Translations under genes and position numbers: made by a program
Shown: positions 18,221 to 43,798 of the stretch, one piece after another
How positions within the stretch are numbered: the stretch's first letter is position 1
Layout of the letters: each line of letters begins with the position of its first letter
From: Streptomyces misionensis
Lineage (GTDB): Bacteria; Actinomycetota; Actinomycetes; Streptomycetales; Streptomycetaceae
Length of the DNA stretch: 64,000 nucleotides
NCBI RefSeq assembly: GCF_900104815.1
Contig: NZ_FNTD01000004.1
Span: 2,620,501 to 2,684,500 of the forward strand
Direction: 5' to 3'
Notes under the pieces: generated by a model
Databases searched by the model: none
What the model was told of the DNA's origin: nothing
The model's input: only the letters and a program-made list of their open reading frames with translations

Positions 18221-18240
18221 ACTCTCAACGTATAGCGCAT

Positions 18241-18265
18241 GGGGGGCCTTGCGGCAAGGCCCCCC
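18241..18265. promoter_or_regulatory. Rifamycin-associated element (RAE) upstream of helR
   Basis: A perfect 25-bp palindrome with 12-bp arms (GGGGGGCCTTGC / GCAAGGCCCCCC) around a central G. It contains the GGCCTTGCGGCAAGGCC-like core of the rifamycin-associated element known to precede rph, arr, iri and helR genes in actinomycetes and to mediate rifamycin-inducible expression. A -10-like TATAGC lies at 18231-18236 just upstream, so the element would sit at the start of the transcript. The 325 bases from here to the helR start are GC/C-rich and hold no other gene I can support. Confidence 0.85.
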
Positions 18266-18589
18266 TCATGCCGCAGAATCGCCCGCCTGACCTGGAAATC
18301 CGCCGGAACGGGGGCCCTGAGAGTGCGCGTCGTGCCGTCGGCGCACGGATCGCGCGCGGACGTCGAAGCACCGGCTGGACCCGCGGTGCGGCCGCGCGAG
18401 CGCGGCGCCGGTGTCCGCGCGCCCGCCGAGCGCCGTCGCCGCCACACCGGGGCACGCCCCGCCGCCGGGACACGGCCGCCACCCGAACACGCCCGCCCCG
18501 CCCCACGACCCCGCCCCTCGACCGGCGACCTGCGACCTCCACCCCCTCCCCCGGCCACCCACCACCCGCGCCCTCCCGATCGGAGCCCC

Positions 18590-27996: not shown

Positions 27997-28044
27997 GCGC
28001 GGCTCAATCTCCGAGGGGACGAGGGGGGTCGGGGGTCCGGGCGG

Positions 28045-30225
28045 TCAGTCCAGACCCATGGCGGCCGACCAGAGGCGGTAGGGCACGTTGTCCGGCGAGC
28101 TGCCCGCGAGGCCCTTCAGCGGCAGTGGCTCCAGGGACTTCGCCAGATCGATGCGGTAGAGGACGACCGCCGTCGACACGGAGTCGTCCGTGCCGGCGTA
28201 CCAGGCGGCGGTGTCCTTGTCGGCGGTGCCGGCCTTCCCCGACAGGCCCGGCTTGGTCACGTCCGGGTGGGCCGCGCGGAAGGAGTCGGTGAGCGCCTGG
28301 TCGACGTCCTTGGCCACCTCGGTGCCGACCGCGCGGGCCGGGTGCGGGGTGGCGAGGGCGACGGGGGCGCCGTTGCGGGTGATGCGGCCGACCGAGTAGG
28401 GCTCCGTGTGGGTGCCGCCGGCGGCGAAGGTGGCGTATCCGCTGGCCATCCGGATGGCGCTGGGGGTGGAGCTGCCGAGGGACAGGGCGGGCACCTGGGG
28501 GCCGATGCTGGAGGACAGCAGTCCGGCGGCCTGGGCGGTCTGCCGTACCTGGGCGAGGCCGGTGTCCATGCCGAGCTGCATGAACGGGGTGTTCACCGAC
28601 TTGGCGAGGGCCTCGCGCAGGGTGATCTTCCCGTAGGACCTGTTGCCGTCGTTGTGTGCCGCGACCTTCTTGCCGCTGCGGTCCCAGTAGGGGCCCTCGG
28701 GGGTGGTCACGGGGACGCCGTCGTCGCCGTCGTAGACGCTGTCGGGGGTGACGGGGGTGGCGGGTCCGCCGCGCGTCTTGTGGACGCCGTGTTCGAGCCC
28801 GGCGGCGTAGACGAAGGGCAGGAACGCGGAACCGGCCGGGACGGTGGTCGCGTTGGACTCGTTGTAGCCCTGGGTACGGTGGTCGGGGCCGCCGTAGACG
28901 GCGAGGATCCGGCCGTCGGTGGCGACGGAGGCGGCGCCGTAGTGGCCGTTCTTCGCGGCGTCGGGGTTGTCCTGCTTCGCCTGCTTGCGGGCCTTGGTGA
29001 CGGCGTCGGTGAGCGCGTTCTCCCGCTTGCGGTCGAACGTGGTGTAGATCTGGTAGCCGCCCAGGTCGAACTGCTGGTCGGTCAGATGGGCGGCCTTCTT
29101 GGCGTACTGGGACGCCAGCTCCACCAGGTAGTCGCTCTGCTCGCCGGTGTTGTACAGCGGGTTGGACTTCAGCGGCTCGGGGAACGTCGTGTACGTGGCG
29201 CGCTCCTGCGGCGACAGCTTGTGGATCTTGACCATGCGGTCGAGGATCCAGGACCAGCGCTCCACGGCCCGCTGGTGGTTGGCCTTGCTCAGGGTGGGGT
29301 CGAAAAGACCGGCGCCCTTGAGCAGTCCGGCGAGCATCGCGGCCTCGGAGACGTTGAGTTCGCTGACGTCCTTGCCGTAGTAGGCCTGGGCGGCGCGCTG
29401 GATGCCGTAGGTGCCGCGGCCGAACCAGCTGGTGTTGAGGTAGCCCTCGAGGATCTTGTCCTTGCTCATCTTGTTGTCGAGCTTGAGGGAGATCATCGCC
29501 TCGGTGAACTTGCGGCTGACCGTCTGGTTCTGGTTGAGGTAGACGTTCTTGACGTACTGCTGGGTGATGGTGGAGCCGCCTTGGGTGTCCCCCTCGCCCA
29601 CGGTGCGGAACAGCGCCCGGCTGATGCCCTTCACGGATATGCCGGGGTCCGAGTAGAAGGTCTCGTTCTCCGCCGCGAGGACCGCCCAGCGGACGTCCGG
29701 GGGTATGTCCTTCAGCGGCATCGCCTGCCGCTGCACCCATCCGGTGCGGGCCATCGGGGTGCCGTCGGACCAGAAGTAGACGTTGTCCTGCTGGGTCGCG
29801 TACGTGTTCAGGTCGGTGGGTATGTCGGTGACCGCGTACGCGGTCACCAGGAAGGCGCCGAGCAGGCCGAACGAGGTCAGGACGCCGCCCAGCCACTGCC
29901 GCCAGGAGGGCACCCAGCGCCGCCAGCCGGTCCGTCCGGGACGCGGATAGGCCGGCTTGAGGCGGCGCGCGTAGGGGGCGAGCGGCCCCAGCGCGCGGGC
30001 GGCCGCGCCTCCGACGCGTTTCTTCCCCGGGGGCCGGGTGCCGCGCCGCCGCTCGGCCCGGCCGCCCGCCGAGGACGGCTCGGGCCGCGCGGGCACGCGC
30101 AGCTGCATGGTCTCGTCGGCCCGCAGGCCCTCCACTCTCAGATGCAGGGTCCTGTCGGAGTCGAGCGGCTGCTCGTCGCCACCGCCCGTCTCGGAACGGC
30201 CCTCCCCCTGCGACGCATCGGTCAC
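28045..30225 (-). CDS. Class A PBP-like transglycosylase with degenerate transpeptidase domain
   Basis: A 726-aa membrane protein. The cytoplasmic N-terminus is ~125 residues, with one transmembrane helix near 135-160. A GT51 peptidoglycan glycosyltransferase domain follows, with AAENETFYSDPGIS around residue 185 and GGSTITQQYVKNVYL. A penicillin-binding transpeptidase domain comes last. Its SxxK motif reads S466-A-F-L469 (Lys replaced by Leu), SxN is intact as S543-V-N, and KTG reads K664-A-G. Without the SxxK lysine, transpeptidation should fail, so it may act as a glycan polymerase or sensor. The GTG at 30225 has GGGGAGA upstream. It heads an envelope cluster with the deacetylase-like and Amidase_6 genes. 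Confidence 0.85.
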   Translation of the reverse strand: MTDASQGEGRSETGGGDEQPLDSDRTLHLRVEGLRADETMQLRVPARPEPSSAGGRAERRRGTRPPGKKRVGGAAARALGPLAPYARRLKPAYPRPGRTGWRRWVPSWRQWLGGVLTSFGLLGAFLVTAYAVTDIPTDLNTYATQQDNVYFWSDGTPMARTGWVQRQAMPLKDIPPDVRWAVLAAENETFYSDPGISVKGISRALFRTVGEGDTQGGSTITQQYVKNVYLNQNQTVSRKFTEAMISLKLDNKMSKDKILEGYLNTSWFGRGTYGIQRAAQAYYGKDVSELNVSEAAMLAGLLKGAGLFDPTLSKANHQRAVERWSWILDRMVKIHKLSPQERATYTTFPEPLKSNPLYNTGEQSDYLVELASQYAKKAAHLTDQQFDLGGYQIYTTFDRKRENALTDAVTKARKQAKQDNPDAAKNGHYGAASVATDGRILAVYGGPDHRTQGYNESNATTVPAGSAFLPFVYAAGLEHGVHKTRGGPATPVTPDSVYDGDDGVPVTTPEGPYWDRSGKKVAAHNDGNRSYGKITLREALAKSVNTPFMQLGMDTGLAQVRQTAQAAGLLSSSIGPQVPALSLGSSTPSAIRMASGYATFAAGGTHTEPYSVGRITRNGAPVALATPHPARAVGTEVAKDVDQALTDSFRAAHPDVTKPGLSGKAGTADKDTAAWYAGTDDSVSTAVVLYRIDLAKSLEPLPLKGLAGSSPDNVPYRLWSAAMGLD

Positions 30226-30398
30226 TATGCGTCTCCCCTCCGCACTCGCTCTTGCTCGCGCGGTGAGCTGAGCGTCCTCGCAACGGCGTTCACAAGTTAT
30301 CAGCGAAGTTTTCGATTCCTCCGCACGAGTGTCGGGTGTATCCCAACACTCATCAAACATTGAGACGCCTCTTTCGGCGCCCCGGTTACCCTGACCTC

Positions 30399-30608
30399 AT
30401 GCCTCGCTACGAGTACCGCTGCCGCAGCTGCGGCGACACGTTCGAACTGAGCCGGCCGATGTCCGAGTCGGCGGCGCCCGCGGTGTGCCCCGCCGGGCAC
30501 GAGGACACGGTCAAGCTGCTGTCCACGGTCGCGGTGGGCGGTACCGCGGGCTCCGCGGCCCCGGCGCCCCAGGGCGGGGGCTGCTGCGGCGGCGGCTGCT
30601 GCGGCTAA
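30399..30608 (+). CDS. FmdB-family zinc-ribbon protein
   Basis: A 69-aa protein. MPRYEYRCRSCGDTFELSRP is the FmdB/CxxC_CXXC_SSSS zinc ribbon opening. The second half-site is CPAGHED, a Cys/His version common in actinobacteria instead of CPxCG. The C-terminal tail GGGCCGGGCCG is Gly/Cys rich. FmdB proteins are putative small regulators of unknown mechanism. The ATG at 30399 fits the family start. It is divergent from the PBP-like gene and followed by a 178-base gap before the convergent HAD gene. Confidence 0.85.
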   Translation: MPRYEYRCRSCGDTFELSRPMSESAAPAVCPAGHEDTVKLLSTVAVGGTAGSAAPAPQGGGCCGGGCCG

Positions 30609-30786
30609 CCGCCCGCGCCGGGCCCCCAGGGCCTCTCGTTGGATCTTGCCGGGCTCGCGGACCCTGGCACCGCGCCTCGCGGCGTTGTCGTCGGTTGCCA
30701 TGGCTCCGCCATGGCGCCCTCCTCCGCCTTGCGACGCACGGCACCAGACCCCGCTCCCTGATCCGGCCTGATCCAAACGAAAGACC

Positions 30787-31602
30787 CTAGGGATTCGCGG
30801 CGCGCGTCGCCTTCAGGAATTCGCCCAGGATGCGCTCGCCCGCGAGGACTCCCCGCTCCGGCAGCGCGCTGACCTTGGGGGCCGACCAGCCGGTGTCCGC
30901 CAGTTCGCCATGGCCCGGGCGCCAGCCCTGGTCGGCGGCCAGGAGGAGGTCGGCGTCCAGCAGGGAGTCGCCCGCCGCCAGGGTGAGGCCGGCGCCGGTA
31001 CGGCGGGCCACCTCGCGCAGCGCGGCGCTCTTGGTGAGCGGCCTGGGCACAGCGTAGAGCTTGCGGCCCTGGAGGGAGACCGTCCAGCCGCGGTCGTCCG
31101 CCCAGGCCGTCAGCTCCTTCACCCACTCCTCGGGCAGCAGTTCGCGCTCGACCACGAGGTAGGCGAACAGGTCCTCGGCGACCCGCTGCCGGCGCAGCCA
31201 CACCGGGTCGGCGGTGCGCGTCAGATGGTCCCGGACCTCCGCCAGCGGCGCGCACTCCTCGGCGAGCCGGGCCAGCACCCGGGCGTGCCAGTCGCGGTCG
31301 GTGACCCCGTCGACCAGCAGATGGCCGCCGTTGGCGCAGATCGCGTACCCGGGTTGCGGGCCGGGCAGGTTGACGCGCTGGTACTGCTTGCGGGTCCGGG
31401 TCGTGGCCGGCACGAACACGGCCCGGTCCGCGAGGTCGGTCAGCAGCCGCGCCGCCGTCTCCGTCATGTACGACAGCGGCTTGCTCTCGTGCACCTCGAC
31501 GCACAGCAGCCGGGGGGCCCGCGCGTCCGGCATTTTCAGCGCGAGGGCCGCCGAGGAGTAGATCAGCGTACGGTCGAGATCGCTCGCCACCAGCACCGGC
31601 AT
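30787..31602 (-). CDS. HAD-superfamily phosphatase of the ter biosynthetic operon
   Basis: A 271-aa cytoplasmic hydrolase. Motif I is VASDLDRTLIYSS (Asp8/Asp10), motif II lies in FVPATTRTRKQYQRV, and motifs III-IV are TKSAALREVARRTG and LAAGDSLLDADLLLAADQ, of the Cof/sucrose-phosphatase-like class. HADs of this type recur beside StiP/PRTase genes in ter clusters and are proposed to dephosphorylate the module's product. Its ATG overlaps the upstream TGA by one base (TGATG), so translation is probably coupled. It is last in the three-gene operon. Confidence 0.82.
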   Translation of the reverse strand: MPVLVASDLDRTLIYSSAALALKMPDARAPRLLCVEVHESKPLSYMTETAARLLTDLADRAVFVPATTRTRKQYQRVNLPGPQPGYAICANGGHLLVDGVTDRDWHARVLARLAEECAPLAEVRDHLTRTADPVWLRRQRVAEDLFAYLVVERELLPEEWVKELTAWADDRGWTVSLQGRKLYAVPRPLTKSAALREVARRTGAGLTLAAGDSLLDADLLLAADQGWRPGHGELADTGWSAPKVSALPERGVLAGERILGEFLKATRAANP

Positions 31603-34058
31603 CAGACGTTCACCGCCCTGCCGTCGGCCCCGGTGGCCCCGCGCGTGTACTTGGGGTGGATCAACCCGACGCAGCTGTAGGGCAGTTCGGCGACCTCCTC
31701 GACCGGTACCCCGCGCTGCCCGGCGAGCAGCCGGACATGGTCCAGGTCGCGGCCGGCGCCTGCGCGCGCGAGGATCTTCCAGGGCACCCGGCGCAGCAGC
31801 ACCCGGGTGGTCTCGCCGACGCCGGGCTTGACGAGGTTCACGTCGTGGATGCCGTACTCCTCGCTGATCCGCTCCACGGCCCGCCAGCCCGCCCAGGTCG
31901 GGGTGCGGTCCTCGGCCGACAGCTCCTTGACCGCCTCGTCCACGGTGTCGGCGACCTCCGGGAAGCGGGCGGCGACGGCGTCGAGGAAGGCCACCGAGAC
32001 ATCGGCGCCCGCGAGTTCGCGGTAGAACTTGGCGCCGTGGAAGTCGTCCGGGCCGACCAGGTCGGCGCGCAGGACGGTGCGGGAGATCAGCCCGGAGACG
32101 GTCGAGTTGAGGCAGGCGGAGGGGATGAGGAAGTCCTCGCGGGTGCCGTAGGTGCGCACGCAGGAACCCGGGTCGGCGAGCACCGCGATCTGCGGGTCGA
32201 AGCCGGTGACGCCCGTCCTGCGGGCGAACTCCTCGACGGCCTCGGCGAGTTCGCGGGTGATGGCGCCCTTGCCGGTCCAGCCGTCCACGAACACCACGTC
32301 CCGGGGGTCGTGGTGGGCGGCCAGCCAGCGCAGCGCGTTGGCGTCGATGCCCCGCCCGCGCACGATCGACACGGCGTAGTGCGGGAGTTCGAGGCCATGC
32401 CGGAACGCTGCCCAGCGGCGCATCAGCACGCCGACCGGGGTTCCGGCGCGGGCCAGCGACACCAGCACCGGGCGCGGCGACCGCTCGCCGAGGACGGTCT
32501 CGGTCACCACGCCGACGGCCCGGGCGATCCGTGCGGCCGAGGCGTCCAGGGCCGCGTGGAACAGCTCCTGGTAGCGGGCGCTGGGCTGGTACTCCACGGG
32601 CAGCGACTCGGCGTAGTGCGCCCCGCCGTTCTGGACGGCCTCCTCCCGCTCCTCGGTCGGCGCCTCCAGGGCGACGTCCGAGAGGTCCTGGAGCAGCCAG
32701 CCGACCTCCTCGGGGGCGTACGAGGAGAACGCGGGGCCGCGGAGGGGCTCGGGCAGCATGGCCGGCCTTTCGGGAGCGCGCGGGGGCGCGGGGACGTAGG
32801 AGGGGACGACCGCGAGCAGTACGTGCGGCACCTGCGCCGCGAGCCGCGCCAGCAGTCCGTCGGGCGCGTGCAGCGCGGGGGTGTCGCCGGCCGAGTCGAC
32901 GACCGCGACGACGGCGTCGAAGCCGCCGCCCGCGACGTTGTAGGCGTACCGCTCGCCGGGCCCGTCGGCCGGGTCGTCGTGCGCCGGGAAGACCAGGCGG
33001 CTGCGGATGGCGTACCCCGGGTCGTCCACCGCGAGCACGGGCGACCGCGTGGTGGTCGAGAAGCGCACCTCGGCCGTCACGGTCCGCTCCAGCTGGTGGG
33101 CGAGCCGGAGCGGGGCGTACATCAGCTCCTCGGAGCCGAGGACCAGCACCCGCCGGGCCCCGGCGGGCAGCGCCTTCGCGATCCGCTCGGCCATGGCGGG
33201 CAGGGCGGCTTCGAGACGGGCGCGGTGGGCGGGGGTGAAGCCGTGCCGGCCCCCGTCGGGAAGGCCGGCGGGCCAGCCCAGGTCCACCGTCACGGGGGCG
33301 CGGTGCGCGGCGTCCGGCCGCACGTGCGGCGCGGGCCCGGCGCACTCGTGGCGGGCCACCAGCTCCCGCCCCTTCTCCAGCACGCCTTCCGGCAGCAGCA
33401 CCGTGCCCGAGGCCGCGGCGACCAGGTCCACCCGTGCCCCGATCTCCTCGGCGAACCGTGCCATCCGCGCGCTGTCCTCGGCCGACCGCATGTCCACGAG
33501 CGCCGCCACCACGTACCGGCGGCGCGGGTACCGCGCGTGCAGGTCACGGATGGTGTTCAACACCGTGTTCCCGGTGGAGAACTCGTCGTCCACCAGCACC
33601 AACGGCCCGTCGCCCGCCAGCAGTGCGGGGTCCGCGGGCAGCAGCAGGTGGGAGGTGGCGTGCGAGTGCGACTCCTCGAACCCGCCCGCGGCGGCGACCT
33701 GGGCGACCGGCCGCCGCGTGGAGTGGAGGTACGGCGCCGTGCCGAGGCCGTCGGCCACGGCGTGCCCGAGTCCCGTCGCGGTCTCCGCGTAGCCGAGGAC
33801 GACCGCGCGGGCCGCCTCCCCGCCGAGCCGCTCCGCCACCCGCCGGCCCAGCCGCACCCCGTGGCCGTACACCACCGAGGGCGTCTGCGGTACGTGCTTG
33901 CCGAGGACGTTGGAGACCAGCAGGTGGGCCCGCTTGGGGTTGCGGCGCAGGGCGAGGCCCAGCAGGGCCGGCAGCCCGTCGTCGCCGCGGAGCTCGACCC
34001 CGAGTCGCTCGGCGACCCAGCTGCCGGACCAGACCGCGTCGTTCACTGCGTTGTTCAT
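31602..34058 (-). CDS. PRTase-TRSP-StiP-PELOTA fusion protein (ter biosynthetic module)
   Basis: An 818-aa four-domain cytoplasmic protein. (1) A PRTase_2 phosphoribosyltransferase, residues ~30-215, has the PRPP motif LVLVDDEFSTGNTVLNTI. (2) A TRSP domain, ~225-430, includes the name-giving TTRSPVLAVDDPGYAIRS. (3) A StiP (CysP/PRTase_1) domain, ~450-730, has LVSLARAGTPVGVLMRRW and VVFVDGWTGKGAITRELA. (4) A PELOTA RNA-binding domain, ~735-805, has VLLRRVPWKILARAG and CVGLIHPKY. In many genomes these are two or more separate ter-linked genes. The module was proposed by comparative genomics to make a nucleoside-like compound; no reaction is proven. The ATG at 34058 has AAGGAA upstream. Confidence 0.82.
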   Translation of the reverse strand: MNNAVNDAVWSGSWVAERLGVELRGDDGLPALLGLALRRNPKRAHLLVSNVLGKHVPQTPSVVYGHGVRLGRRVAERLGGEAARAVVLGYAETATGLGHAVADGLGTAPYLHSTRRPVAQVAAAGGFEESHSHATSHLLLPADPALLAGDGPLVLVDDEFSTGNTVLNTIRDLHARYPRRRYVVAALVDMRSAEDSARMARFAEEIGARVDLVAAASGTVLLPEGVLEKGRELVARHECAGPAPHVRPDAAHRAPVTVDLGWPAGLPDGGRHGFTPAHRARLEAALPAMAERIAKALPAGARRVLVLGSEELMYAPLRLAHQLERTVTAEVRFSTTTRSPVLAVDDPGYAIRSRLVFPAHDDPADGPGERYAYNVAGGGFDAVVAVVDSAGDTPALHAPDGLLARLAAQVPHVLLAVVPSYVPAPPRAPERPAMLPEPLRGPAFSSYAPEEVGWLLQDLSDVALEAPTEEREEAVQNGGAHYAESLPVEYQPSARYQELFHAALDASAARIARAVGVVTETVLGERSPRPVLVSLARAGTPVGVLMRRWAAFRHGLELPHYAVSIVRGRGIDANALRWLAAHHDPRDVVFVDGWTGKGAITRELAEAVEEFARRTGVTGFDPQIAVLADPGSCVRTYGTREDFLIPSACLNSTVSGLISRTVLRADLVGPDDFHGAKFYRELAGADVSVAFLDAVAARFPEVADTVDEAVKELSAEDRTPTWAGWRAVERISEEYGIHDVNLVKPGVGETTRVLLRRVPWKILARAGAGRDLDHVRLLAGQRGVPVEEVAELPYSCVGLIHPKYTRGATGADGRAVNV

Positions 34059-34074
34059 GCGTTCCTTGGAGGGG

Positions 34075-35241
34075 TCAGCCGGGTATGCCGGCGGCGAGCA
34101 GTTCCACGAAGCCGACGTCCTCGTGGGCGACGCCGAACGCCTCCGCGCGCAGCAGGGTCCGTTCGGCCCAGGCGCGGTGCGGTTTCACCTCGTTCATCTT
34201 GTTCGTGTACACGGACCGGAGGACGCCTCCGCCGCCCCGCTCGGGCCGCAGTATGTCCCGGGCGTCGCTGAACTCCTCGTGGCTGACCACGGACAGCGCG
34301 TGCACGGGCAGGACGTGGGAGGGGTGGATGCAGGTCTTGCCGAGCAGCCCGTTGGCCTGGTCGAGGGAGATCTCCCGCAGCAGCCCGTCCATGGCGTGCT
34401 CCAGCAGCCTCTCGCGCAGTTCGACGGCCTGCACCTCCAGGAAGGGGCTCTGCCGCAGCTGGGGCTTGAACATGCGCTCGGAGTGGCGGAAGTACTCCCA
34501 CACGGGGCCGGTGACGGTGAATCCGGTGCCGTCGGCGCGGCCCAGCATGTTCACCACGTCGGCGATCACGGAGGCGACGACCTGGACGTCGTAGGCGGTC
34601 ATGTCGGGGGCGCGGCGCAGCCCGTAGGAGGAGCAGAAGTCGGTGACGCCGAGGCGGAGCGCGAGGACGCGGTCGCGGTACTTGTCGACGGCGCGGAAGA
34701 TGCCCTCCAGGGTCTCCACGCGCGACTCGCGGTACAGCAGCTCCGGGGACTCCAGGACCGGCATCGCGAACAGGCGGCGGCCGGTGTGGGTCTCGGCGGT
34801 GGCCAGGGCCTCCAGGAAGGGCAGGCCGCGCTCCTCGGTGAACTTGGGCAGCACGAAGCCGGACAGCAGCCGTGCACAGTCGCCGAGGCGGCGTACGAGG
34901 TCGGGGATCTGCTCGGGGGCGCGCACCCGGATGAACAGCAGCGGGGGCTCGGCGGCGGGCCGGGAGCCGAGGTCGGCGAGCTGGCGGACCAGGTTCTCCT
35001 CGCCCGCGGGCACGTCCGCGTCGTCGATGGAGTCCTCCAGGCACAGCACCATGGAGACCACGCCGTTGCCCGCCTGTTTGAGGATGTCGTCGGCCAGTCT
35101 CGGCCGGGTGGCGGGGCTGTAGAGCGTGGCGCCGAGGGCGGTGGCGAGCAGCCGGGCCGGCGAGTCCGCGGTGAACGTGCGGGGCTCCCGGTGGAAGAGG
35201 CGCTGCCGCACCTCGGGGGCGACGTGCCCGAAATGACGCAT
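34075..35241 (-). CDS. HpcH/HpaI aldolase/citrate lyase-like protein of the ter module
   Basis: A 388-aa protein of the citrate lyase beta/HpcH-HpaI TIM-barrel superfamily. LATALGATLYSPATRPRLAD leads into GNGVVSMVLCLEDSIDDADV (acidic metal/CoA region), FIRVRAPEQI (Arg), LPKFTEERG, MPVLESPELLYRES (Glu) and RLGVTDFCSSYGLRR (Asp). It would cleave or form a C-C bond on a 2-oxo or CoA-linked substrate. It is the first gene of the operon; the next start is 16 bases past its stop. The ATG at 35241 has GGGAG upstream. Its presence with PRTase, StiP and HAD is the standard ter-associated set. Confidence 0.83.
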   Translation of the reverse strand: MRHFGHVAPEVRQRLFHREPRTFTADSPARLLATALGATLYSPATRPRLADDILKQAGNGVVSMVLCLEDSIDDADVPAGEENLVRQLADLGSRPAAEPPLLFIRVRAPEQIPDLVRRLGDCARLLSGFVLPKFTEERGLPFLEALATAETHTGRRLFAMPVLESPELLYRESRVETLEGIFRAVDKYRDRVLALRLGVTDFCSSYGLRRAPDMTAYDVQVVASVIADVVNMLGRADGTGFTVTGPVWEYFRHSERMFKPQLRQSPFLEVQAVELRERLLEHAMDGLLREISLDQANGLLGKTCIHPSHVLPVHALSVVSHEEFSDARDILRPERGGGGVLRSVYTNKMNEVKPHRAWAERTLLRAEAFGVAHEDVGFVELLAAGIPG

Positions 35242-35307
35242 AGGACTCCCTCGAAGACGCGTGCCGAACCCCTGGATTCGGTAAAAGGTGGCCGGTAATA
35301 GTACGTA

Positions 35308-35328
35308 GGAACACCTGTCCGGGGTTCC
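35308..35328. promoter_or_regulatory. Inverted repeat in the divergent ter promoter region
   Basis: GGAACACC / GGGGTTCC arms with one mismatch around a 5-base centre lie in the 178-bp gap between the divergent HpcH-like and TerD genes. An A/T-richer patch (35281-35308) next to it likely holds the promoter(s). A shared operator controlling both arms is possible. Confidence 0.35.
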
Positions 35329-35419
35329 CTGCGGACGTGAATTCCCGGTGACCCGGCCGTGTCGGCGGCCGACACCCCCCGCATTGTCGTGGCCAGGGCC
35401 GAGAGGGCAGGATGACGGC

Positions 35420-36157
35420 ATGACGCACGCGATGCTCAAGGGCTCGAACGTCCCGCTGGAGGCCACCACGGTGCGCGCCGTGCTGCGCTGGACACCGGGC
35501 CAGTCGGTCCCGGACGTGGACGCCTCGGCGCTGCTGCTGGGCCCCGACGGCCGTGTGCGCTCGGACGAGGACTTCGTCTTCTACAACCAGCCCCGGCATC
35601 CGTCGGGAACGGTGTGGCGGCTGGGCAAGAAGCGCATCACCGAGGGCCTCACCGACACGATCCAGACAGACCTGGCGGGCGTCGAGCCGGAGATCGGGCG
35701 GATCCTGCTGGTCGCCTCGGCGGACGGGGTCGCCTTCGACCGGGTGCCGAACCTGAGCATCCTGGTGTACGACGCGGCGGTGGCCGACGGTGAGCCGTGG
35801 GCGACGTTCGAGATCAAACCGGAGACCGGCGCGGAGACCGCGATGATCTGCGGGGAGCTGTACCGGCGCGGTGAGGGCTGGAAGTTCCGGGCGCTGGGCG
35901 AGGGCTACTCCAACGGGCTCAAGGGCCTCGCCACGGACTTCGGCATCTCGGTGGACGAGTCGGAACCGGAGGAGCCGGCGACGGTGTCCCAGCCGCTGCC
36001 TCCGGAGCAGCCGGCGACGGCGGTGCCGCCCCAGCCGGCCTACGGCTACCCGCAGCCCACGTCCGCGCCGGCGTACGGATACCCGCAGCCGGTGCCGGCG
36101 GCGCCCGACCCCGGGTTCCGGCTGCCGCCGCAGGGGCCGCAGTTCATCGGGCGGTGA
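35420..36157 (+). CDS. TerD-family stress protein with Pro/Tyr-rich tail
   Basis: A 245-aa protein. Residues 1-~180 form a TerD beta-sandwich (VDASALLLGPDGRVRSDEDF, VFYNQP, TAMICGELYRRGEGWKFRAL, EGYSNGLKGLATDFGISVD). The Ca2+-binding acidic residues are partly different from the two downstream TerD proteins; the D-G-S-V-E-H-T-G-D stretch is absent. Residues ~185-245 are a disordered Pro/Gln/Tyr tail with AYGYPQP repeats, as in signalling scaffolds. The ATG at 35420 follows GGGCAGGATG. Its stop is exactly adjacent to the convergent stop of the TerA-like gene. Confidence 0.85.
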   Translation: MTHAMLKGSNVPLEATTVRAVLRWTPGQSVPDVDASALLLGPDGRVRSDEDFVFYNQPRHPSGTVWRLGKKRITEGLTDTIQTDLAGVEPEIGRILLVASADGVAFDRVPNLSILVYDAAVADGEPWATFEIKPETGAETAMICGELYRRGEGWKFRALGEGYSNGLKGLATDFGISVDESEPEEPATVSQPLPPEQPATAVPPQPAYGYPQPTSAPAYGYPQPVPAAPDPGFRLPPQGPQFIGR

Positions 36158-36883
36158 TCAGGCCTTGGTCTTGTAGCCGCGGCCCCATTGCAGGCCCCAC
36201 CCGTACAGGCGGTCCAGCTCGGCCTGGAAGCCGTAGACGAACTTGACCTCGCGGCGGACCACGAGTTCGCCCTTGACGTTCTCGATGAGCAGGACGGCGC
36301 AGGAGCGGGCCTGGGGGTGGCGTTCGTCCAGGCTGATCTCCAGGCGGGGGCCGCTGCTGGGGTACAGGGTGACGATGGCGTGCGTGCGGTCGAACGCGGG
36401 GGTCTGGTCGTAGATGTACACGAAGACCAGGACGCGTTTGATGGACTCGCGGTGGTCGAGGTTGATGTACATCGTCTCGCCGGAGCCCGAGCCGAACCGG
36501 TCGTCGCCGCTGATCTTGATGTACGGGGCCGCGTTGACGTCGCCCAGGTAGTCGCCCAGCGGCTGGACGACGCCCTTGGTGCCGTCGGTCAGCTCGTACA
36601 GACAGCCGAGGTCGAGGTCGACGTCGACCATGCTCTGCCCGTGGCCCTGGATCTCCGGCGGCTTCAGGGCCTTGAGGGGGTGGCGCAGCAGGCTGGGCCG
36701 CTGCATGCCGAAGTCGGAGCTGCGCATCCGCCAGGTGAGGTTGACGCGCAGATGGCCGGTGGCCGCGCCCTGCTTGCTGAGGGACACCGTGTGGTGCCGT
36801 TTGGTGAGTTCGATGGCGTTGCCGGTGCCGCCCGAGTCGAAGTCGACCGCGCGTGCGCCCAGCAGCCCGTCGAAGAAGCCCAT
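36158..36883 (-). CDS. TerA-like TerD-superfamily protein
   Basis: A 241-aa protein beginning MGFFDGLLGARAVDFDSG. It has a TerD-superfamily sandwich: LRVNLTWRMRSSD near residue 45, VDVDLDLGCLYELTDGTKGV (acidic metal-binding loop), YINLDHRESIKRVLVFVYIY, then RTHAIVTLYPSSGPRLEISL. The C-terminus is KFVYGFQAELDRLYGWGLQW. The length and order match TerA-type proteins, which bind Ca2+ and associate with TerC-like membrane proteins. It lies 88 bases downstream of the DUF475 gene on the same strand, with an ATG start at 36883. Confidence 0.8.
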   Translation of the reverse strand: MGFFDGLLGARAVDFDSGGTGNAIELTKRHHTVSLSKQGAATGHLRVNLTWRMRSSDFGMQRPSLLRHPLKALKPPEIQGHGQSMVDVDLDLGCLYELTDGTKGVVQPLGDYLGDVNAAPYIKISGDDRFGSGSGETMYINLDHRESIKRVLVFVYIYDQTPAFDRTHAIVTLYPSSGPRLEISLDERHPQARSCAVLLIENVKGELVVRREVKFVYGFQAELDRLYGWGLQWGRGYKTKA

Positions 36884-36971
36884 TGCCGCCCCCAGGTCGT
36901 CGTCCGCATGCCGTCGGGGCGGCCGGCCGTGCCCGCCGCCCCGAACGAAGCGTTCCTCACCGGTCAGGGTG

Positions 36972-38111
36972 TCACACCCCGGAGGAGACCTCGGCCTTCT
37001 CCCCGCTGCCGGCACCGGCCGCCGCGAGGGCCCGGTTGCGGCGCACGGAGGACCAGAAGGACAGGGCGATCAGGACGACGCCGACGAGGCCGGTGATCAC
37101 CTCGTTGATCTCGTACTGGATGGTCACCATCAGGATCAGGGCGAGGGCGCCGATCGCGTAGTGGGCGCCGTGCTCCAGGTAGACGTAGTCGTCCAGGGTG
37201 CCCTGGCGGACCAGGTAGACGGTGAGCGAGCGGACGTACATCGCGCCGATGCCGAGGCCGAGGGCCATCATCACGATGTCGTTGGTGATGGCGAAGGCGC
37301 CGATCACGCCGTCGAAGGAGAAGGACGCGTCCAGGACCTCCAGGTAGAGGAACATGAAGAACGCGGCCTGGCCGGCCAGCAGGACGGCCGACTTCTTCTT
37401 GCCGGTGCGGGCGGCCTCTTCCTCCTCCTCGTGCTCGCGCTCCTCCTCTTCCTCCAGGCGTTCCTCGAAGAAGCCGGAGAGACCTCCGACGATCATGTAG
37501 GTGATCAGGCCGGCGATGCCGGAGATCAGGACCGTCTGCGCCTTGTCGGCGTGGATGCCGCCGTGCTGGTGGGCCTGGGTGGCGAAGGTGAAGGAGGTGA
37601 TCAGCAGCACGATCAGGGCGATGCAGACCGACAGCATGTCGACCTTGCCGAGCTTGGCCAGGGGCCGCTCGATCCAGCGCAGCCACTGTATGTCGCGGTC
37701 CTCGAAGATGAAGTCCAGGAAGATCATCAGCAGGAACATGCCGCCGAAGGCCGCGATCGCCGGGTGGGCGTCGGTGACCAGCTGCTGGTAGCGGTCCTTG
37801 TCGGCGAAGGCCAGGTGGACCGCGTCGATCGGGTTGAGCTTGGCGGTGATGGCGACGATCACGACGGGGAAGACCAGTCGCATGCCGAAGACGGCGATGA
37901 GCACGCCGACCGTGAGGAAGATCTTCTGCCAGAAGGCGTTCATCTTCTTCAGGATCCCGGCGTTGACCACCGCGTTGTCGAAGGACAGCGAGATCTCGAG
38001 GACGGCGAGGATCGCCACGACCCCGAAGGCCTCCCAGCCCCCGTAGAAGACGGCGGCGACCAGGCCGAGCGCGGTCACCGCGAACGACCAGCCGAAGGTT
38101 TTCAGAAGCAC
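36972..38111 (-). CDS. DUF475 TerC-like integral membrane protein
   Basis: A 379-aa polytopic protein of the DUF475 branch of TerC/Alx transporters. It has paired acidic helices VLEISLSFDNAVVNAGILKK (residues ~39-58) and EVLDASFSFDGVIGAFAITN (~255-275), both with the S-F-D core, plus a very acidic cytoplasmic loop (EERLEEEEEREHEEEEEAAR). TerC-family proteins move or sense metal ions such as Mn2+ and assemble with TerD/TerA proteins at the membrane. The GTG at 38111 has GGGGTAA upstream. It sits between terD genes in one probable transcription unit. Confidence 0.87.
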   Translation of the reverse strand: MLLKTFGWSFAVTALGLVAAVFYGGWEAFGVVAILAVLEISLSFDNAVVNAGILKKMNAFWQKIFLTVGVLIAVFGMRLVFPVVIVAITAKLNPIDAVHLAFADKDRYQQLVTDAHPAIAAFGGMFLLMIFLDFIFEDRDIQWLRWIERPLAKLGKVDMLSVCIALIVLLITSFTFATQAHQHGGIHADKAQTVLISGIAGLITYMIVGGLSGFFEERLEEEEEREHEEEEEAARTGKKKSAVLLAGQAAFFMFLYLEVLDASFSFDGVIGAFAITNDIVMMALGLGIGAMYVRSLTVYLVRQGTLDDYVYLEHGAHYAIGALALILMVTIQYEINEVITGLVGVVLIALSFWSSVRRNRALAAAGAGSGEKAEVSSGV

Positions 38112-38174
38112 TGGTTACCCCATCGTGTTGTGGGGGCGCCTCCCATGAGGGTCTCCCCCGCGCCGAGCACGGCT

Positions 38175-38753
38175 TTACGAAACGTTGACTCCGAAGTCTA
38201 GAGCGATGCCGCGCAATCCGGACGCGTACCCCTGGCCCACCGCACGGAACTTCCACTCGCCCTGGTAGCGGTACAGCTCGCCGAAGATCATGGCGGTTTC
38301 GGTGGAGGCGTCCTCGCTGAGGTCGTAGCGCGCGAGTTCCTGGCCGTCGGACTGGTTGACCACGCGGATGAAGGCGTTGGAGACCTGGCCGAAGGTCTGC
38401 CCGCGCTCGTCGGCCATGTGGATGGAGACGGGGAAGATGATCTTCTCGCACTGGGGCGGCACCTTGGCGAGGTCCACCAGGATGGACTCGTCGTCGCCCT
38501 CGCCCTCACCGGTGAGGTTGTCGCCGGTGTGCTCCACGGAGCCGTCCGGGCTCGTGAGCTGGTTGTAGAACACGAACCACTCGTCGCCCAGCACCCGGTT
38601 GCCGGCACCGCACAGCAGCGCGCTGGCGTCCAGGTCGAAGGGGGCGCCGGTGGTGGACCGCGCGTCCCAGCCGAGCCCGACCATGACGTTGGTGAGGTTC
38701 GGTGCGGCCTTGGAGAGGGAGACGTTGCCTCCCTTGGCGAGCGTGACGCCCAT
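38175..38753 (-). CDS. terD: TerD-family Ca2+-binding stress protein
   Basis: A 192-aa full-length Ter[41 protein letters not shown], the calcium site [20 protein letters not shown], and [20 protein letters not shown]. TerD proteins bind two Ca2+ and confer tellurite and other stress tolerance in a membrane-linked complex; in Streptomyces they also affect differentiation. It is ~65% identical by eye to the next upstream gene product, from which it is separated by 102 bases. The ATG at 38753 is the family start. Confidence 0.92.
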
Positions 38754-38855
38754 GATGCTGGTCCTCCCCTGACGGTGCTTCCCTGTTGTCCTGCGCGTCC
38801 GGCGCCGGCCGTAAACGGCTCGGCGCCGGACGGAGTGCCGCGAAACGCACGGGCG

Positions 38856-39431
38856 TCAGACGTTGACGCCGAAGTCCTGGGCGATGCCGCGCAGGCCGGA
38901 GGCGTAGCCCTGGCCGATGGCGCGGAACTTCCACTCGGCGCCGTTGCGGTACAGCTCGCCGAAGACCATGGCGGTCTCGGTGGAGGCGTCCTCGCTGAGG
39001 TCGTAGCGGGCGATCTCCTGCTGGTTGGCCTGGTTGACGACGCGGATGAAGGCGTTGCGGACCTGGCCGAAGGACTGCTGGCGGTTCTCGGCGTCGTAGA
39101 TCGACACCGGGAAGACGATCTTGTCGACGTCGGCCGGGACCGCGGCGAGGTCGACCTTGATGGCCTCGTCGTCGCCCTCGCCCGCACCGGTGAGGTTGTC
39201 GCCGGTGTGCTCCACGGAGCCGTCGGGGCTCTTGAGGTTGTTGAAGAAGACGAAATGCTGGTCGCTGACGACCTTGCCGGAGGTGTTCAGCAGCAGCGCG
39301 CTCGCGTCGAGGTCGAAGTCGGTGCCGGTCGTGGTCCGCACGTCCCAGCCCAGACCGACGATGACGGCGGTCAGGCCCGGGGCCTCCTTGGTCAGCGAGA
39401 CGTTGCCGCCCTTGCTGAGGCTGACTCCCAC
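38856..39431 (-). CDS. terD: TerD-family Ca2+-binding stress protein (paralogue)
   Basis: A 191-aa TerD/TerE-type protein: [40 protein letters not shown], the calcium site [40 protein letters not shown] and the C-terminal [10 protein letters not shown]. It is first of four same-strand ter genes (39431 to 36158). The GTG at 39431 has GGAGG 5 bases upstream, an optimal ribosome binding site. Upstream bases contain GGATC...GATCC repeats that could be part of its promoter or operator. Confidence 0.92.
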
Positions 39432-39571
39432 GAGTCCTCCATGTGGTGTCGAGGGGCGGGGAGCCCCGTCGTGCTTCGGATATGGGATCAACGAACCGAT
39501 CCTAGTGACGGGTTCCCGCCCCCCGCGGACCCTGGACCCGAAGGGCCCCGGATATCGGCCGACCGGCCGAT

Positions 39572-40030
39572 TTAGAGGGTGTCGAGCGCCTTCACGTAGT
39601 CGTTGAGGTCGCGCGCGTCCGGCAGACCGTTGACCACCGTCCAGCGCACCACGCCGTCCTTGTCGATGACGAAGGTGCCGCGCACCGCGCAGCCCTTGTC
39701 CTCGTCGAAGACGCCGTAGGCGCGCGAGACGTTGCCGTGCGGCCAGAAGTCGCTGAGCAGCGGGTACTCCAGGCCCTCCTGCTCGGCGAAGACGCGCAGG
39801 CTGTGGATGGAGTCGTTGGAGACGGCGAGCAGCTGGGTGTCGCGGTCGGTGAACTTCGGCAGGTTGTCGCGCAGCGCGCACAGCTCGCCGGTGCACACGC
39901 CGGTGAAGGCGAAGGGGTAGAAGAGCAGGACCACGTTCTTCTCGCCGCGGAAGTCGGCGAGCCGCACGGTGCGGCCGTGGTTGTCCTTGAGCTCGAAATC
40001 GGGCGCCTTGTCGCCGACCTGGATCGCCAT
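39572..40030 (-). CDS. AhpE/BCP-type peroxiredoxin
   Basis: A 152-aa thiol peroxidase. The peroxidatic Cys46 lies in [19 protein letters not shown] (the P-x-x-x-T-x-x-C pattern), and an Arg occurs later in [17 protein letters not shown]. The usual length for AhpE-type 1-Cys enzymes is ~153 aa, so it is complete. It reduces hydroperoxides in the cytoplasm, probably recycled by mycothiol/mycoredoxin. The ATG at 40030 ([16 protein letters not shown]) has GAAGGGAAG upstream; an in-frame ATG 13 codons earlier is rejected. It is on the same strand as the ter genes and the DUF3052 gene. Confidence 0.9.
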
Positions 40031-40151
40031 GTCGTGCTTCCCTTCGGTGGGCTGTTCGGGTGAGAGCACAGCAAACGCTCGGCTCCACCCTACGCAGCGA
40101 TCACCAGGGTTCCCGGACGGGCCGGTGGGATCCGGCCCGCCCGGGCGGCGG

Positions 40152-40589
40152 TCACCGCTTCGACTTGGCCGCCTTCGGCGTGGCCAGCCGGTTGCCGCTC
40201 CAGTCCTTGCCGACGCTCACGCTCTTGGCCGCGGTCAGCCCGGCCGTCGTGGCGGCGTCCTGGATGTCGCTCGGCTCCACGTACCCGTCACGACCCGTCT
40301 TCGGCGTGAGGAGCAGAATCGCGCCGCCCTCCTCGATGTACGTGGTGGCATCCACCAGCGCATCCGTCAGGTCGCCGTCGTCATCACGGAACCACAGCAC
40401 AACGGCGTCGGCCACGTCGTCGTATTCCTCGTCCATCAGATCGCCCTCGATGGCTTCCTCGATGGACTCGCGGAGTTCCTGGTCGACGTCGTCGTCGTAG
40501 CCGATCTCCTGGACCACCTGCCCGGGCTGGAACCCCAGCCTGGCGGCAGGGTTCGTCCGCTCCTCCGCGTGGTCCGCGGTCGCGCTCAC
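40152..40589 (-). CDS. DUF3052 family protein
   Basis: A 145-aa very acidic protein: ARLGFQPGQVVQEIGYDDDV, DDVADAVVLWFRDDDGDLTD, IEEGGAILLLTPKTGRDGYV and a basic C-terminus ending AAKSKR. This is DUF3052, conserved beside aceE in actinobacteria; the function is unknown. The GTG at 40589 has AGGAGG 6 bases upstream, an excellent ribosome binding site. It is divergent from aceE across a 461-bp region. Confidence 0.87.
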   Translation of the reverse strand: MSATADHAEERTNPAARLGFQPGQVVQEIGYDDDVDQELRESIEEAIEGDLMDEEYDDVADAVVLWFRDDDGDLTDALVDATTYIEEGGAILLLTPKTGRDGYVEPSDIQDAATTAGLTAAKSVSVGKDWSGNRLATPKAAKSKR

Positions 40590-40688
40590 GGGTTGCCTCC
40601 TGATCATGTCTTGGTGAATATCTCAGCCACGCGCGTGCGCGAAGCATTGGCCGTAGTCCACACGGGCGGGGCGGATCGCGCAAGTACC

Positions 40689-40706
40689 CGGCGGTCCCGA
40701 CCGCCG
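40689..40706. promoter_or_regulatory. Palindrome in the DUF3052-aceE intergenic region
   Basis: CGGCGGTC-CC-GACCGCCG is an 18-base perfect inverted repeat about 345 bases upstream of aceE. The 2-base centre argues for a protein-binding site rather than a terminator. The rest of the 461-bp gap (40590-41050) shows no credible gene; a TTGCCA at 40838 followed ~19 bases later by TATCGT is a possible aceE promoter. Confidence 0.35.
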
Positions 40707-41050
40707 AAACGGTGACGATCCCGGCCGTGTCGCCGCAACTCCTGGCACCGTATCTCGATTCCGCGCCACCCACATCACCCCGATGTGCCCGGTTTGCACG
40801 GCGCGGAATCATCCACGGATGGAACCATCGAACAACTTTGCCAAGCGCGTCACACCCCGGGCGTATCGTTGCGTTTTGACCGGCGGTGTGCTCCGGCGGT
40901 ACGGCGGGGAGCCGGCGGTGGAGATGACGGGCGTGCTCCCTCGGTACACGATGGGGAACGGCGCGGGCACGAACAGTAGGCGCGAGTAGCGGTACGAGCA
41001 GCGAGCAGCAGTACGAGCAAGAACCGGCCCTCCGACAGGTAAGGAACAGC

Positions 41051-43798
41051 GTGGCTTCCGGATCCGATCGCACCCCGATCATCATTGGCGGCCTTCCGAG
41101 TCAGGTTCCTGACTTCGATCCCGAAGAGACCCAGGAGTGGCTCGACTCCCTCGACGCGGTCGTGGACGAGCGCGGCCGGGAGCGGGCGCGCTACCTCATG
41201 CTGCGGCTGATCGAGCGGGCCCGCGAGAAGCGCGTGGCCGTGCCCGAGATGCGCAGCACGGACTACGTCAACACCATCCCCACCAAGAGCGAGCCGTTCT
41301 TCCCGGGCAACGAGGAGATCGAGCGCAGGATCCTGAACGCGACCCGCTGGAACGCGGCCGTGATGGTCTCGCGCGCCCAGCGGCCCGGCATCGGCGTGGG
41401 CGGCCACATCGCCACCTTCGCCTCCTCGGCGTCGCTCTACGACGTGGGCTTCAACCACTTCTTCCGCGGCAAGGACGAGGGCGACGGCGGCGACCAGGTC
41501 TTCTTCCAGGGCCACGCCTCCCCCGGCATCTACGCGCGCGCCTACCTGCTGGACCGGCTCACCGAGGACCAGCTGGACGGCTTCCGCCAGGAGAAGTCGA
41601 AGTACCCGAACGGCCTGTCCAGCTATCCGCACCCGCGCTCGATGCCGGACTTCTGGGAGTTCCCGACGGTCTCCATGGGCCTCGGCCCGCTGGGGGCGAT
41701 CTTCCAGGCGCGGATGAACCGCTACATGGAGGCGCGCGGGATCGCGGACACCTCCAGGTCGCACGTGTGGGCGTTCCTCGGCGACGGCGAGATGGACGAG
41801 CCGGAGTCGCTGGGCCAGCTCACGCTGGCGGCCCGGGAGGGCGTGGACAACCTGACCTTCGTGGTCAACTGCAACCTCCAGCGCCTGGACGGACCGGTGC
41901 GCGGCAACGGGAAGATCATCCAGGAGCTGGAGTCGGTCTTCCGGGGCGCCGGCTGGAACGTGATCAAGCTGATCTGGGACCGCAGCTGGGACCCGCTGCT
42001 CGCGCAGGACCGGGACGGCGTCCTGGTCAACAAGATGAACATGACCCCGGACGGGCAGTTCCAGACGTACGCCACGGAGTCGGGCGCCTACATCCGCCGG
42101 CACTTCTTCGGCGACGACCACCGGCTGCGCGCCATGGTCGAGAACATGACCGACGACCAGATCCTGCACCTGGGGCGCGGCGGGCACGACCACCGCAAGA
42201 TCTACGCGGCGTTCAAGGCGGCCAAGGAGCACAAGGGCCAGCCGACGGTGATCCTGGCCAAGACGATCAAGGGCTGGACGCTGGGCCCGAACTTCGAGGG
42301 CCGCAACGCCACGCACCAGATGAAGAAGCTGACGGTCGACGACCTCAAGCGCTTCCGGGACCGGCTGCACCTGCCGATCTCCGACCGGGAGCTGGAGTCC
42401 GGCCTGCCGCCGTACTACCACCCGGGCCGGGACTCTGAGGAGATCCAGTACATGCACGACCGCCGCAAGGGCTGCGGCGGTTACGTCCCCACGCGCGTCG
42501 TGCGCTCCAAACCGCTCGCGCTGCCGGACGACAAGGCGTACGCGACCGTGAAGAAGGGCACGGGGCAGCAGTCCATCGCCACCACGATGGCCTTTGTGCG
42601 GCTGCTCAAGGACCTCATGCGGGACAAGGAGATCGGCCGGCGGTTCGTGCTGATCGCGCCGGACGAGTACCGCACGTTCGGCATGGACTCCTTCTTCCCG
42701 AGCGCGAAGATCTACAACCCGCTCGGGCAGCAGTACGAGTCGGTGGACCGTGAACTGCTGCTCGCCTACAAGGAGTCGCCGACCGGGCAGATGCTGCACG
42801 ACGGCATCTCCGAGGCGGGCTGCACGGCCTCGCTGATCGCGGCGGGCTCGGCGTACGCCACGCACGGCGAGCCGCTGATCCCGGTGTACGTCTTCTACTC
42901 GATGTTCGGTTTCCAGCGCACGGGTGACCAGTTCTGGCAGATGGCCGACCAGTTGGCGCGCGGGTTCGTCCTCGGCGCGACCGCGGGCCGTACGACGCTG
43001 ACCGGCGAGGGCCTCCAGCACGCCGACGGGCACTCGCAGCTGCTGGCCTCGACGAACCCGGCGTGCGTGGCCTACGACCCGGCGTACGCGTACGAGATCG
43101 CGCACATCGTGCAGGACGGTCTGCGGCGGATGTACGGCAGCTCGCCCGAACACCCGCACGGCGAGGACGTCTTCTTCTACCTCACCGTCTACAACGAGCC
43201 CATCCGGCACCCGGCGGAGCCGTCCGACGTGGACGTCGAGGGCATCGTCAAGGGCATCCACAAGCTCTCCGACGGCCCCGGCGGGGCGATCCCGGCGCAG
43301 ATCATGGCGTCCGGGGTGGCGGTGCCGTGGGCGCTGGAGGCGCAGCGGATCCTCGCGGAGGACTGGAACGTGCGGGCGGCCGTGTGGTCCGCGACGTCCT
43401 GGAACGAGCTGCGGCGGGAGGCCGTCGCCTGCGAGCAGCACAACCTGCTGCACCCGGAGGAGGAGCAGGCCGTCCCCTACGTGACGCGCAAACTGAGCGG
43501 CGCGGAGGGGCCGTTCGTGGCCGTGTCCGACTGGATGCGGTCGGTGCCGGACCAGATCGCCCGGTGGGTGCCGGGGCCCTACCAGTCGCTCGGCGCGGAC
43601 GGCTTCGGCTTCGCCGACACCCGGGGCGCGGCGCGCAGGTTCTTCCACATCGACGCGCAGTCGATCGTGGTGGCCGTGCTCACGGAGCTGGCACGGGCGG
43701 GCCGGATCGACCGCTCCGCCCTGAAGCAGGCCATCGACCGCTACCAGGTCCTGGACGTCACGGCGGCCCACCCGGGAGCGGCCGGCGGCGACGCCTGA
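41051..43798 (+). CDS. aceE: Pyruvate dehydrogenase E1 component (homodimeric AceE)
   Basis: A 915-aa thiamine-diphosphate enzyme of the homodimeric alpha2 type. N-terminal signatures include [19 protein letters not shown] and [20 protein letters not shown]. The ThDP/Mg2+ motif is [13 protein letters not shown], continuing to [20 protein letters not shown], with [19 protein letters not shown] in the transketolase pyrimidine domain. It decarboxylates pyruvate and passes acetyl to the E2 lipoyl domain; E2 and E3 are not in this window. The GTG at 41051 has AAGGAAC upstream. It is transcribed alone, ending at two hairpins. It feeds acetyl-CoA to the fatty acid operon downstream. Confidence 0.96.

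Follow-up and report, generated by a model that had tools for sequence, protein, structure and literature searches.

Within a 64,000-nucleotide stretch of the Streptomyces misionensis genome (contig NZ_FNTD01000004.1, positions 2,620,501 to 2,684,500; hereafter the window), three tightly packed genes on the minus strand, running from 35241 down to 30787, encode an HpcH-type lyase, an 818-aa fusion protein and a haloacid dehalogenase (HAD) phosphatase. We propose, with a probability of roughly 0.58, that they form a Ter-linked biosynthetic operon whose product is a dephosphorylated ribosyl compound, built from phosphoribosyl pyrophosphate (PRPP) by two PRPP-using sites and a phosphatase. This reading draws on domains, model folds, conserved motif residues, gene order and co-occurrence, while the reactions, the product and its sensing by TerD are a proposal. 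The operon and the domains of the fusion, which include phosphoribosyltransferase (PRTase) domains, are laid out as follows, in window coordinates.

34075..35241, minus strand: HpcH/HpaI-type C-C bond lyase, 388 aa, at the head of the operon (PF15617, C-C_Bond_Lyase, E 5e-121)
31602..34058, minus strand: fusion protein PRTase_2-TRSP-StiP-PELOTA_1, 818 aa (Pfam; relatives share the open frame)
33405..33965, minus strand: PRTase_2 domain, residues 32-218 (Pfam E 3e-69)
32850..33257, minus strand: TRSP domain, residues 268-403 (Pfam E 5e-41)
31974..32726, minus strand: StiP domain, residues 445-695 (Pfam E 2e-105)
31656..31895, minus strand: PELOTA_1 domain, L7Ae/L30e-like, residues 722-801 (Pfam E 5e-35)
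30787..31602, minus strand: HAD phosphatase, 271 aa, its start overlapping the fusion stop (motif residues; solved relatives 6cj0/6d3v/6d3w)

The fusion frame (31602-34058) runs uninterrupted from ATG to TGA, and its four domain matches all lie far past the Pfam cut-offs, in agreement with the initial annotation, which had read four domains in one 818-aa polypeptide. The protein is matched in 149 of 150 genomes of the host genus. Since at least 75 of these 150, among the matches listed (in E-value order), show a single continuous match that begins at residue 9 or earlier and reaches residue 815 or later, an artefact of a stop or frameshift, which that annotation had named as what could undo its claim, is excluded. 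The remaining same-genus genomes gave shorter or broken matches among those listed; for G447, G464, G472 and G496 both match pieces are listed with identical open-frame length, and three listed rows (G430, G442 and G451) contain an internal TGA. The frames read on the DNA also confirm the spacing and coupling noted earlier: 16 bases separate the lyase gene from the downstream fusion gene, and the fusion TGA shares one base with the HAD ATG (TGATG). Searched by sequence against solved structures, the full-length fusion returned no match up to E 1. When fusion and split proteins were placed in one MAFFT alignment, the PRTase-TRSP rows fell on StiP, and two separate models were made instead.

The first PRPP-using site would be that of PRTase_2, an APRT-like PRTase that carries D158-E159-x2-T162-G163-x-T165. 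The second would be StiP, which the initial annotation had treated as a domain apart from the PRTases. That separation did not hold up, as the predicted StiP model adopts a PRTase fold and finds its best match among solved structures in the PRPP-dependent ribofuranosyltransferase CriT, and this suggests that StiP is a second PRTase fold within the fusion. PF11202 is already given as PRTase_1 in one paper, so the PRTase reading of StiP restores an older assignment; our literature searches listed no publication on the StiP fold itself. Sequence-level backing for the fold is weaker than the model evidence, and the plain Foldseek result was not clear-cut. Profiles of StiP-PELOTA gave weak matches to solved structures, mainly of the PELOTA part to L7Ae-type proteins, and a 61-row profile compared with the CriT structure 8a0c, rather than with a CriT family profile, gave no match at E≤10. 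What counts against our proposal is the PRPP loop, where two adjacent acids, as in the classic loop, were looked for and a single acid was found, in D592-G593-W594. D592 may correspond to CriT E818. D572 is a candidate for the second acid, but it sits in loop 2, whereas CriT D680 lies in loop 1 (compared without superposition).

Between the two sites lies TRSP, whose profile aligns to the N-terminal half of PRTase_2 (hhalign probability 80.7, E 1.3e-5), pairing AETAT...TRRP/TTRE with SEELM...TTRSP. None of 40 column shuffles of the thinned alignments scored as high, and comparison of TRSP with a PyrR profile yielded no match (E 0.035). Because of the match to PRTase_2, we read TRSP as probably a degenerate duplicate of a PRTase domain.

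The third enzyme, the HAD protein, received no name from Pfam and NCBIfam at E 1e-3. It nevertheless contains all the HAD phosphatase motifs (DxDxT, T, K and GD..D), and residues D9, D11, T68, K192, D213 and D217 are invariant in 26 of 26 sequences (P0003 numbering, which has one extra leading residue). Used as a lone query, it had as top matches, well clear of all others, 6cj0/6d3v ("Trehalose phosphatase") with E 2.8e-11; this is the fair test, as the profile match of 6e-58 arises partly by construction, from an alignment that includes a protein near-identical to 6d3v. The protein so close to 6d3v comes from a Pseudomonas plasmid, where it is the Ter-operon HAD, and it shares about 26% identity with the HAD of the window. 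It has Cys at positions 85 and 231, the residues named for the "extra-chromosomal TPP" of Pseudomonas aeruginosa in the part of PMC6838324 available to us, and on this ground we take the two to be the same protein. On that identification, and as far as the available text goes, phosphatase activity would have been measured for one member of the Ter HAD family, in an assay for trehalose-6-phosphate phosphatase (6d3v, 6d3w, 6cj0). The true substrate may be something other than trehalose phosphate.

A pairing of PRTase and HAD has chemical precedent. According to the accessible portion of PMC10299916, CriT transfers ribose-5-phosphate from PRPP onto a hydroxyl and the HAD protein CrpP then removes the phosphate; the accessible portion of PMC12096443 describes a similar transfer and dephosphorylation for Cj1432. 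Since the Ter core shares this pairing, we propose two phosphoribosyl transfers and a dephosphorylation, with the lyase working on the acceptor. Given its APRT/XPRT-like fold and intact PRPP motif, PRTase_2 would transfer 5-phosphoribosyl from PRPP to an acceptor that is probably base-like, and TRSP, as a dead copy, may shape or regulate this first site. StiP, the PRTase fold closest to CriT, would then transfer 5-phosphoribosyl to a second acceptor, perhaps at a hydroxyl, after which the coupled HAD phosphatase would take off the 5-phosphate. The HpcH lyase may make or trim the carbon skeleton of the acceptor, and ATP-grasp, where its gene is present, may add a further bond. PELOTA could link the complex to RNA, either as substrate or as sensor. 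Fusing the two PRTase proteins would fix both their 1:1 supply and their proximity.

We compared 87 loci: 80 retained as the best among at least 591 relatives found with a Lachnospiraceae-like query (a Firmicutes-leaning set), six plasmid or phage records and the window. StiP and PELOTA lie in one frame in 87/87 loci, as do PRTase_2 and TRSP in 80/81. PRTase_2, StiP and HAD retain their motif residues in all the phyla sampled. Among 396 genomes of the phylum, TRSP occurs in 16, the same 16 that have full-length StiP; the other four StiP matches are three divergent forms and one PyrR (L020). The deeply divergent loci L215, L216 and L217 hold PRTase_2-TRSP-type, StiP/PELOTA-type and HAD-type genes in that order, with the StiP motif DGWTSGGG and with TerD-like and AIM24-like neighbours, both named by eye. 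No lyase was found in these three loci with a profile that detects the lyase in four control loci, whose lyases are inside the profile. The two PRTase proteins and HAD therefore look like the core, judged from sequence comparison, with lyase and ATP-grasp variable. Loci apparently working without PRTase_2 were considered and rejected: four with StiP and HAD and no PRTase_2 nearby (L098, L102, L104 and L107) come from genomes that all encode it elsewhere, and L215-L217 all have it. A profile of 26 operon lyases, the window's included, matches CLYBL (5vxc, 7e-12) and malyl-CoA lyases. ATP-grasp, a frequent though not universal part of the module, was detected in 10 of 53 well-flanked loci from the set of 80 and thus is not module-defining. 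As the initial annotation had stated for the locus, a PF15632 search of the 8.47-Mb genome found no dedicated Ter ATP-grasp: the profile hits four places, one of which reaches the cut-off only when summed over a 1106-aa frame, and it also gives matches in 14/14 control genomes.

At a query coverage of ≥80%, 2,515 of the 72,556 plasmid records encode both PRTase proteins. Among the phage records, the jumbo phage locus of Acinetobacter phage ME3 (L025), described as a Ter system (PMC7824862), has PRTase, HAD, StiP, TerD and vWA genes and a TerC match, with a macro-domain-type gene and NAD synthetase close by. A second record labelled bacteriophage (L024, MT836648, unverified) appears to be a fragment of a bacterial genome of Lachnospiraceae type and not a phage, judging from its housekeeping-like frames (by eye) and the nearest relatives of its StiP, which are Lachnospiraceae.

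The fused form is itself a variant and is routine in the host genus. The check across the class that had been suggested, fused versus split, was run and gave matches in 95 of 394 genomes; 40 of these belong to the host genus and 55 do not, and a few of the latter matches are weak or partial. Judged by rows (one match, or pieces with equal open-frame length), the protein is fused in 40/40 same-genus genomes and 11/55 others. A script then examined the loci of 30 same-genus genomes, the 11 fused other-genus ones and 29 of the other 44, and returned fused for 30/30 and 11/11 and split for 29/29. For the split loci, a start codon giving an exact 4-base gene overlap was located in 26 of 29, a count that leans upward because the script chose the start nearest that spot. 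On a 76-row StiP-PELOTA tree, in which several rows are long branches, the fusion label changes four times; the starred branches force four changes and bootstrap trees give four to five. Fusion thus arose or was lost more than once, and its recurrence is in keeping with proteins that act next to each other. Allobaculum (L075:6824-9004) has another type of fusion, a 726-aa lyase-PRTase_2-TRSP protein.

Upstream of the operon lies a set of ter genes.

35420..36157, plus strand: TerD-domain gene, divergent from the operon, start picked by eye (PF02342 E 4e-44, tested on the longer frame 35348-36157)
36158..37015, minus strand: TerA/TerD-like protein (weak TerD match, E 0.04; TerA likeness by eye)
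36972..38111, minus strand: TerC-type membrane protein, DUF475 (PF04332 1e-137, PF03741 2e-19)
38175..38753, minus strand: TerD (PF02342 E 2e-84)
38856..39407 (stretch tested), minus strand: TerD (PF02342 E 1e-84; the match begins at position 10 of the profile, which puts the true start slightly upstream)

A small FmdB-like zinc-ribbon frame, named from its sequence alone (30402-30608, plus strand), converges on the HAD gene, and an 831-aa helicase-like protein with UvrD and AAA_19 matches lies at 18239-20734 (plus strand). A promoter and terminator scan gave no match, and PADLOC reported nothing above threshold (PRTase_III-A at E 0.083 only).

With linked PRTase_2-TRSP and StiP-PELOTA, an HpcH-type lyase and HAD in the operon and terD/terC alongside, the locus belongs, as first proposed, to the Ter biosynthetic module. 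The further suggestion of an undescribed system was not supported, since the module and a nucleoside-like product were proposed in 2012 by Anantharaman, Iyer and Aravind, and the fused form is ordinary here. For perception of the product by TerD proteins, also suggested in the initial annotation, the results speak neither way. As later papers cite it, the 2012 module likewise has PRTase_2-TRSP, StiP(PRTase_1)-PELOTA, HpcH and HAD adjoining terD/terC genes, whereas the window has one polypeptide for two and lacks ATP-grasp. Gene order also differs: two enterobacterial plasmids run ATP-grasp, PRTase-TRSP, HAD, StiP-PELOTA, HpcH, while the window operon begins with HpcH and ends with HAD. The CriT-CrpP (Bcs3 capsule polymerase) and gPRT-PRP ribofuranosyltransferases resemble the operon in placing a PRTase fold, StiP's best structural match, beside a HAD phosphatase in one operon. 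They differ in that no sequence match was found with the profiles used, no glycan-synthesis context was seen at the window locus, StiP has an L7Ae-like domain and the candidate acid pair falls in different loops.

The L7Ae-like domain opens other interpretations. PELOTA_1 shows the L7Ae-like fold and E..K/R RNA-contact pattern in alignments, model and 144 sequences; E749, R752 and R757 are invariant in these, and E749 and R752 fall where the alignments place the E and K with which L7Ae contacts RNA. A link to RNA through this fold is possible. StiP-PELOTA might then be an RNA-modifying enzyme, in which the L7Ae-like domain holds a structured RNA, StiP adds phosphoribosyl and HAD strips the phosphate, so that the product is ribosylated RNA and not a small metabolite. 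The invariant residues and the unbroken pairing of StiP with PELOTA speak for this, and Rit1, which places a PRPP-dependent 2'-O-ribosyl phosphate on yeast initiator tRNA, offers a chemical precedent. However, no RNA target is known, no Rfam family reaches gathering scores in 28000-42000 of the window, and small-molecule synthesis is the better fit for PRTase_2, HpcH and ATP-grasp. In addition, docking and simulation, in the part of PMC5571608 available to us, gave PELOTA_1 fewer k-turn hydrogen bonds than L7Ae. We consider an RNA-modifying enzyme unlikely. Because PELOTA was never separated from StiP in the 87 loci, we also retain, as a rather doubtful idea, that the conserved core of StiP-PELOTA and HAD serves to ribosylate RNA in a stress-linked manner, such that PELOTA-held RNA would receive ribose-5-phosphate from PRPP and HAD would remove the phosphate, leaving the RNA marked and no free signal.

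We find it similarly doubtful that the PRTase domains act chiefly in sensing or regulation, as PyrR and PurR do, binding PRPP or nucleotides while PELOTA relays the signal to RNA, so that the fusion would regulate under stress and synthesize little. PyrR, a regulator built on the PRTase fold, ranks with the best structural matches of the StiP model, the Pfam StiP profile reaches the PyrR of L020 at E 1e-4, short of the cut-off, and TRSP looks degenerate. PyrR and PurR share the fold, and PyrR is also RNA-binding; to our knowledge, neither has a joined PELOTA-type domain or a HAD or lyase partner. The cross-phylum conservation of the PRTase_2, StiP and HAD motif residues argues against regulation, and HAD, often with lyase and ATP-grasp as partners, points to synthesis. 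Finally, the cysteine protease role that current Pfam and NCBI names give to StiP (the label stands on 39 of 40 plasmid rows among the matches listed) is not supported and highly improbable, for beyond the database name the 144 sequences hold no invariant Cys among columns present in the window's protein (in the best column 134/144 have Cys, while the remaining 10, plasmid and phage homologues among them, have Ile, Leu or Ala), and the solved structures that best match the model have PRTase folds.

Taken together, the operon is a known module in a fused variant ordinary for its genus, and the chemical hypothesis for it is now sharper and testable. The results argue for review of the "cysteine protease" label on StiP. 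With StiP read as a CriT-like PRPP enzyme and paired with a HAD that has a solved, assayed relative, the chemistry becomes directly testable, and the fused protein makes both PRTase sites available as a single purifiable unit.
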